Shown here in pieces: positions 32,645-33,401 of a stretch of 64,000 bases of DNA. Within the stretch, counting starts at the first letter, position 1, and each line of letters starts with the position of its first letter. Both the position numbers and the translations under genes were made by a program. The stretch lies in contig JAISCR010000104.1 in NCBI GenBank assembly GCA_031265435.1, positions 1 to 64,000 on the forward strand. Reading direction: 5' to 3'. Below the pieces are notes generated by a model. That model was not told the DNA's origin, searched no databases, and saw only the letters and a list, made by a program, of their open reading frames with translations. Source of the stretch: Treponema sp. (GTDB taxonomy: Bacteria; Spirochaetota; Spirochaetia; Treponematales; Breznakiellaceae).

Positions 32645-32700
<56 letters not shown>

Positions 32701-32717
<17 letters not shown>

Positions 32718-33197
32718 GAACCTGTAAGCGCTCGGTAAAGTAATTACAGGGACGAAAGTACCTGGTACGGGATAAAGGCAGGCTTCGAAGGGTTTAGTCC
32801 GCCGAACGAATGTGAGGAAAAGGCGCCATGATGGCGCCGGAAGGACTAAACCCCGGCCCGGAAGGAGCCGGAAGGAGCCGGCAGGACGCCGGCGAGGGGA
32901 GGGGAAGCCTACTGCGCCTGGAACCTGTAAGTGCCCGGTAAAATAATTACAGGGACGAAAGTACCTGGTACGGGGATAAAGGCAGGCTTCGAAGGGTTTA
33001 GTCCGCCGAACGAATGTGAGGAAAAGGCGCCATGATGGCGCCGAAAGGACTAAACCCCGGCCCGGAAGGAGCCGGCAGGACGCCGGCGAGGGAAGGGGAA
33101 GCCTACTGCGCCTGGAACCTGTAAGCACCCGGTAAAGTAATTACAGGGACGAAAGTACCTGGTATCGGGGTAAAGGCAGGCTTCGAAGGGTTTAGTC
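32701..33197 (+). repeat. Tandem direct repeat, units 32701-32903, 32904-33097 and partial 33098-33197; each starts with the tRNA-Trp 3' end
   Basis: GAAGCCTACTGCGCCTGGAACCTGTAAG... recurs at 32701, 32904, 33098; units carry CCTGTAA/TTACAGG, GGTTTAGTCC/GGACTAAACC and GGCGCC-atgat-GGCGCC hairpins. Confidence 0.95.
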
Positions 33198-33221: not shown

Positions 33222-33401
33222 ATGAACAAACTGATTCAATTTGTAAAGGAATCCTATGCCGAGCTCAGGAAGGTTATCTGGCCCGGCAGAGATGACGTAG
33301 TTAGCTCGGTCAAGGTGGTTGTTATATCCACCGTCATTATCGCCGCCGTACTGGGACTAGTGGATGTACTGCTCCTCTTCGGAATCCGGGCGATTTTCTA
33401 A
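33222..33401 (+). CDS. secE: Preprotein translocase subunit SecE
   Basis: MNKLIQFVKESYAELRKVIWPGRDDVVSSVKVVVISTVIIAAVLGLVDVLLLFGIRAIF; 59 aa; directly before nusG. Confidence 0.96.
   Translation: MNKLIQFVKESYAELRKVIWPGRDDVVSSVKVVVISTVIIAAVLGLVDVLLLFGIRAIF

Follow-up and report, generated by a model that had tools for sequence, protein, structure and literature searches.

Small DNA hairpins matched to tRNA ends in Treponema and its relatives look like an overlooked family of mobile elements, similar in design to rtT of Escherichia coli

In the 64,000 nt of Treponema sp. DNA analysed here (the window; GCA_031265435.1, contig JAISCR010000104.1, positions 1-64,000, forward strand), the gene for tRNA-Trp precedes a tandem array made of two full units, 203 and 194 nt long, and a 100-nt partial unit (33098-33197), before secE begins at 33222. 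Every new unit opens with the tRNA-Trp 3' end (GAAGCCTACTGCGCCTG), the tail of the gene (GAAGCCTACTGCGCCTGG) being found again at 32904 and 33098. This raises the question as to what has been multiplied behind a tRNA gene together with that gene's own end: a folded RNA domain tied to a housekeeping operon, a small mobile repeat recalling an attB duplication, both of which the original prediction had proposed, or an artefact of assembly. The layout itself was recovered as predicted (Table 1), including the named stems (CCTGTAA/TTACAGG, and GGTTTAGTCC/GGACTAAACC around GGCGCC..GGCGCC) and a change in copy number of GGAAGGAGCC between units; the difference in unit length is mainly due to an extra CCGGAAGGAG in unit 1. 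Each unit also contains an inverted tRNA-Trp end (AGGCTTCGAA), overlooked at first reading, and no open reading frame was found within the units of the window. The array is not an assembly artefact, because two genomes belonging to the same genus (G003 and G004) carry one full unit and the identical partial unit at the same place; the partial unit ends at the same cut in G001 as in these two. Among relatives, the element between tRNA-Trp and secE is present, truncated or absent. At the same locus of the genome G002 (L128), a spacer remnant is split by an insert of ~120 bp whose ends resemble GTTTGTCCATAATATG and CTTTGTGGACAGA and which may be a miniature inverted-repeat element.

Table 1. Features of the tRNA-Trp to secE interval, in window coordinates
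Feature	Position	Strand	Source
tRNA-Trp (CCA anticodon)	32645..32717	+	ARAGORN, Rfam tRNA
D1, first tail copy, tRNA-Trp positions 56-73	32700-32717	+	ARAGORN, Rfam tRNA
Unit 1 spacer, hairpin CCTGTAA/TTACAGG	32718..32779	+	
A1, inverted tRNA-Trp T-loop/T-stem (AGGCTTCGAA)	32780..32789	+	
Unit 1 core	32790..32903	+	covariance model R1 match 32779-32920, 98.8 bits
Unit 1 core stems	P1 32790-32800/32843-32853; P3 32822-32827/32833-32838	+	
Unit 1 core, P4 region with additional 10-nt CCGGAAGGAG copy	within 32790..32903	+	
D2, direct tRNA-Trp 3'-end copy, start of unit 2	32904..32920	+	
Unit 2 spacer	32921..32983	+	
A2, inverted tRNA-Trp end	32984..32993	+	
Unit 2 core	32994..33097	+	R1 match 32983-33114, 118.8 bits; DNA fold
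Unit 2 core stems	P1 32994-33004/33047-33057; P3 33026-33031/33037-33042	+	
Unit 2 P4, GCCGGC with loop AGGAC and GA/GA flanks	33071-33076/33082-33087	+	
D3, direct tRNA-Trp end copy, start of partial unit	33098..33114	+	
Partial unit 3: spacer, A3 (33178-33187), P1 5' strand GGGTTTAGTC; stops before the remaining core	33115..33197	+	
secE, downstream gene (context)	33222..33401	+	read from sequence

Searching with the unit, as originally suggested, reveals that it is not unique to this locus. BLAST against the genome of origin (G000, an assembly that is 84% complete) returns more copies of a ~100-nt core next to tRNA genes, another one in each case (Tyr, Gln, His, Leu, Asp), and a covariance model built from 16 copies (R1) finds 15 matches there. 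Across Spirochaetota, R1 matches occur in at least 82 of 395 genomes and in 39 genera, counts that are minima since eight candidates were scored per genome; single-contig genomes hold up to 25 copies and arrays reach six or seven units. A tRNA or tmRNA gene lies upstream on the same strand of 145 of 150 R1 hits (104 of them within 100 nt, and 41 further into an array). No upstream tRNA was called for the remaining five, of which at least one (L067) lies behind a truncated tRNA end. The host genes comprise 31 anticodon types plus tmRNA, the tmRNA gene concerned (L074, in G402) having a tRNA-like T-arm as its 3' end. The copies, whose spread over further tRNA genes had also escaped the first reading, track tRNA genes, not the housekeeping operon to which the element had been tied.

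When GTDB contigs were scanned with a pattern, most hits came from Treponema and other Spirochaetota. Others came from metagenome-assembled genomes under the labels Omnitrophota, Armatimonadetes and groundwater "Delta/Betaproteobacteria", on contigs that may be misassigned; several of these have the full tRNA-A-core-D2 plan described below. In one groundwater "Deltaproteobacteria" assembly (JACRIV), core-like copies are intergenic, have no close tRNA and are preceded by degenerate T-arm-like sequence (L168, L180, L200, L218, L219); these possibly represent a branch no longer tied to tRNA genes. The pattern also hit Streptomyces, Cyanobium, Rhodospirillales and Caulobacteraceae (L189, L208, L215, L223), apparently by chance and within coding sequence; the same holds for one of the two hits in viral contigs (L274), the other viral hit (L275) being a real array. 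Among the matches listed for a phage collection, all were tRNA matches, and a plasmid search for the element gave no match. Within the window, Rfam returned only tRNA and chance-level matches, both at gathering thresholds and at E<5, with no RF00391; the family has no Rfam entry, and no description of it was found in the open-access literature.

The copies share a common plan, tRNA-spacer-A-core-D2, with units of ~140-230 nt across the family, in which A is the inverted T-loop and T-stem of the resident tRNA, D2 is a direct copy of tRNA positions 56-73, and the core is a three-way junction of ~100 nt. Both arms are specific to the resident tRNA: D2 matches its end over a median of 18 nt, and over at least 13 nt in 131 of 145 copies as against 1 of 4280 comparisons with the ends of other tRNAs, and A matches over at least 9 nt in 132 of 145 copies as against 481 of 4280. 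The direct copy has a sharp boundary, starting at tRNA position 56 in 101 of 131 cases; A ends at position 54 in 73 of 132. As A and D2 copy the same tRNA end, one inverted and the other direct, they can pair with each other (P0), and this stem, P1 (enclosing P2 and P3) and P4 make up the three-way junction. Tandem GA/GA pairs lie inside P2 (55 of 75) and P4 (44 of 75), with Watson-Crick pairs occasionally in their place, and P4 contains a GGA/GGA internal loop in 41 of 75. The P3 and P4 loops of most copies (for instance 33077-33081 in the window) read AGGAY or ANGGAT and resemble CsrA-binding GGA loops; they are probably structural. Truncated units, which keep the spacer and A but just the initial 10-16 nt of the core, are found at array ends or alone (L138 in G031, L135 in G009, and the ends in L005, L006, L017 and L001), and their cuts cluster near GCCGA or the P1 5' strand.

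The element is folded, and the question is in which nucleic acid. The unit is more stable than dinucleotide shuffles when folded as RNA (z -4.8), and so is the unit 2 core with its arms when folded as DNA (z -4.9). Changes on both sides affect 29 of 41 pairs, exceeding all 500 shuffles, which ignore relatedness, and all slid controls. In the stems of 75 distinct elements, G-U makes up 1.3% of the paired cells (36 of about 2700) and is about as frequent as A-C mismatches (30 of about 2700), whereas the acceptor and T stems of 282 tRNAs in the fetched loci have 6.6% G-U (223) and 0.1% A-C (4), in a control whose requirement of at least 10 of 12 pairs lowers A-C somewhat. Because the stems covary while G-U, which an RNA fold should tolerate, is almost absent, the fold of the element is conserved as DNA, not RNA. 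The compensatory changes of a structured RNA are there, but its greater tolerance of G-U than of A-C is not, and the folded RNA domain of the original prediction is not supported. The G.A motifs are confined to the tRNA-sense strand, an indication that it is this strand that folds.

The same figures bear on the possibility of a functional RNA, where the unit would be co-transcribed with the tRNA as a structured small RNA or leader, in the way suggested for rtT RNA, acting perhaps via its CsrA-like GGA loops, with pairing of A to the tRNA or to D2 serving as a switch. The constant position on the tRNA sense strand, the conservation of GGA-type loops and the annotation of rtT as RNA all fit such a role. 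However, besides G-U being as rare as A-C, a terminator-like run of at least five T lies between the tRNA and the element in 38 of 104 first-in-array copies, presence is patchy, and Rfam matches nothing but rtT itself, so that a functional RNA appears quite improbable.

Comparison of sister genomes provides filled and empty versions of the same site. At tRNA-Arg(tcg)-Lys, G000 is empty, D being followed by the native terminator. In its sister G002, D1 is followed by a new terminator, A, the core and D2, and only then by the native terminator; the insert is framed at both ends by direct repeats of the tRNA 3' end, as in tRNA islands, and the arrangement has the geometry of a circular unit recombining with the tRNA end. 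Empty sites could also be losses via D1-D2 exchange. At tRNA-His, G000 has a full and a truncated unit, G002 the truncated one only. Nearest core neighbours share genome or tRNA type more than under shuffled labels, and in 60 of 104 cases the nearest neighbour sits behind a tRNA of another type, with identities of 0.87-0.92 for some; with similar cores at different tRNA types and arms that match the resident, cores thus arrive at new tRNAs, whereas the arms correspond to the tRNA that resides there. The mobile, att-like reading is in this way supported in its geometry (dispersal, resident-specific repeats from position 56, filled and empty sister sites), although it is not proven in action.

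An explanation to which we give about an even chance is that of a family of non-autonomous DNA elements that target tRNA 3' ends and work as folded single strands. The active movement, the single-strand intermediate and the recombinase with its type are what we infer. Each unit would consist of D (tRNA positions 56-73), a spacer, A (the inverted tRNA end) and the core; A would pair with the next D into a stem mimicking the tRNA end, forming with P1 and P4 a three-way junction in which tandem G.A is abundant. This folded site would then be joined to the T-loop of a tRNA gene by a recombinase provided in trans, the incoming D restoring the tRNA and the former 3' end becoming D2. Repeated events or unequal exchange would produce the tandem arrays, and the arms may be rewritten at each new tRNA by template switching at the palindromic T-loop TTCGAA. 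Several observations speak against a mobile element: if different tRNAs simply exchanged at the T-loop, chimeric tRNAs would result, and none are seen; direct repeats reach more than 12 nt beyond the tRNA in 40 of 85 arrays, as expected from tandem duplication; and there is no recurrent neighbour gene, with Y1 transposase, reverse transcriptase and integron integrase (IntI) each missing from element-rich genomes.

These long direct repeats, together with fractional arrays and near-identical adjacent units, would suit passive hairpins devoid of any dedicated recombination, in which slippage or unequal exchange between D repeats builds the arrays, template switching at the T-loop creates A, quasipalindrome correction perfects the stems and gene conversion homogenises the copies. 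Perfect stems without G-U fit such copying at the DNA level, and no enzyme has been found. We nevertheless hold a purely passive origin to be rather unlikely, as it leaves unexplained the first arrival behind 31 tRNA types and tmRNA and does not account for a strongly conserved GA-motif core over 39 genera or for the new terminator that arrives with D1 at tRNA-Arg.

If the elements are mobile and non-autonomous, translocation would require an enzyme encoded elsewhere. The prediction that no integrase lies nearby holds for the family, as neither an integrase nor any other recurrent enzyme gene adjoins the copies: the search for an autonomous partner among recurrent neighbours returned only synteny of housekeeping genes and common paralogues, ABC proteins for instance, and no cargo-carrying copies were seen among the fetched array regions. 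A Y1 transposase as the required enzyme was rejected, none being present in the element-rich genomes G253, G033, G390, G163, G415, G250 and G209, and so was a reverse transcriptase (of a retroelement, retron or group II intron), absent from G262, G033, G390, G163, G198, G250 and G209. Each of the two enzymes was lacking in the majority of tested genomes rich in the element. Recombinases of the Phage_integrase family are present in all 14 genomes tested, in Xer-like pairs where inspected, so it is possible that a housekeeping recombinase acts in trans on the element.

A more specific proposal is that the element is a divergent attC-like site moved by an integron integrase, which would take the tRNA T-arm as a secondary site. 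Integron attC sites are single hairpins with R and L boxes, carry gene cassettes and are served by a dedicated integrase (PMC3607928). Both kinds of site keep structure over sequence, act or would act as folded DNA with pairing outer arms, and grow into arrays; the element differs by its three-way junction, its tRNA arms, its lack of cargo or gene cassettes and its lack of a consistent IntI. By raw counts that ignore ancestry, IntI matches occur in 62 of 395 genomes, and the element is present in 36 of these 62 versus 46 of the 333 others. However, the 46 of 82 carriers without an integrase match include G000, in its 84% complete assembly, and G262, which has 21 copies; conversely, G038 and G041 have the integrase and no element. 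Inspection of the arms, which are copies of the tRNA T-arm, did not pick out a box pair with the AAC/GTT triplets typical of attC, and T. primitia was reported in a 2013 study to lack an integron (PMC3607928). An attC-like origin therefore seems highly improbable, and IntI is rejected as the required enzyme. The same study described Treponema as the sole spirochaete clade with integrons (PMC3607928); integron-integrase-like genes are seen here well beyond Treponema, in G253, G415, G305 and genomes outside the class.

Among other known systems, several share some properties with the element. In CTX phage, an Xer-dependent filamentous phage, inverted att copies around a folded region of attP pair in single-stranded DNA and mimic the target, much as A and the next D would imitate a tRNA end here; its target is dif and not a tRNA, and it is a phage with genes. 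Integrative elements and islands targeted to tRNA genes likewise leave direct repeats of the tRNA 3' end at attL and attR, but they span kilobases, encode an integrase and have one target each, in contrast to a gene-less family of ~140-230 nt spread over 31 anticodon types and tmRNA. REP/BIME palindromes with RAYT transposases are dispersed, short, folding and gene-less DNA repeats too, yet they are not tied to tRNA ends, and several genomes rich in the present element have no Y1 transposase.

To our knowledge, E. coli tyrT is the one known site of tandem repeats with tRNA ends, and those repeats have lacked an explanation. The tyrT/tyrV locus of strain K-12 (L312, 1285800-1288200) contains four units of the 178-bp rtT repeat (RF00391). 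The tRNA-Tyr 3' end is repeated directly at the end of each, and the cores open with GGGGAAGGAT (GGGGAAGGGT in one), the inverted tRNA-Tyr end; the units also contain tandem-GA hairpins, and their DNA folds give a P0 stem and a junction. Inverted tRNA-Tyr ends and tandem-GA hairpins are seen in the rtT repeats of L311, L312 and L313, and Klebsiella units have the same arms plus CGAGGCGCTTTAGCGCCGAG, a GA-stem-GA hairpin. Strain SK1144 has the same locus without units, a clean empty site, and copy number ranges from 1 to 10 among the 4722 E. coli genomes with a match, while about 700 other genomes have none. The rtT repeats thus resemble the Treponema element in their tandem units behind a tRNA, direct copy at the unit end, inverted copy at the core start, tandem-GA hairpins, predicted DNA fold and filled and empty sites among strains. 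They differ in core sequence and branch order, in sitting behind tRNA-Tyr only in the copies examined, in a D2 that begins at about tRNA position 58, instead of 56, and includes the encoded CCA, and in being treated as RNA. An R1 scan of E. coli rtT gave no match, so the likeness is one of plan, not of sequence, and need not reflect common descent. The RNA annotation of rtT may describe a DNA element.

Whether this amounts to a class of mobile DNA that has so far gone unrecognised, very small and gene-less, addressed by an inverted tRNA-end arm that is rewritten for each tRNA, present in Spirochaetota and several other phyla, and counting E. coli rtT, long taken as RNA, as a distant member, is a proposal that we advance tentatively and with somewhat more doubt than confidence. 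The family has the look of very small mobile DNA hairpins aimed at tRNA genes that have been overlooked, and its design resembles that of rtT. Being large, of one plan and of freely varying sequence, it turns an oddity of E. coli tyrT into a comparative problem; if the mobile-element reading is true, the RNA reading of rtT would be put in doubt, and the copying and exchange of tRNA 3' ends would have gained an added route.
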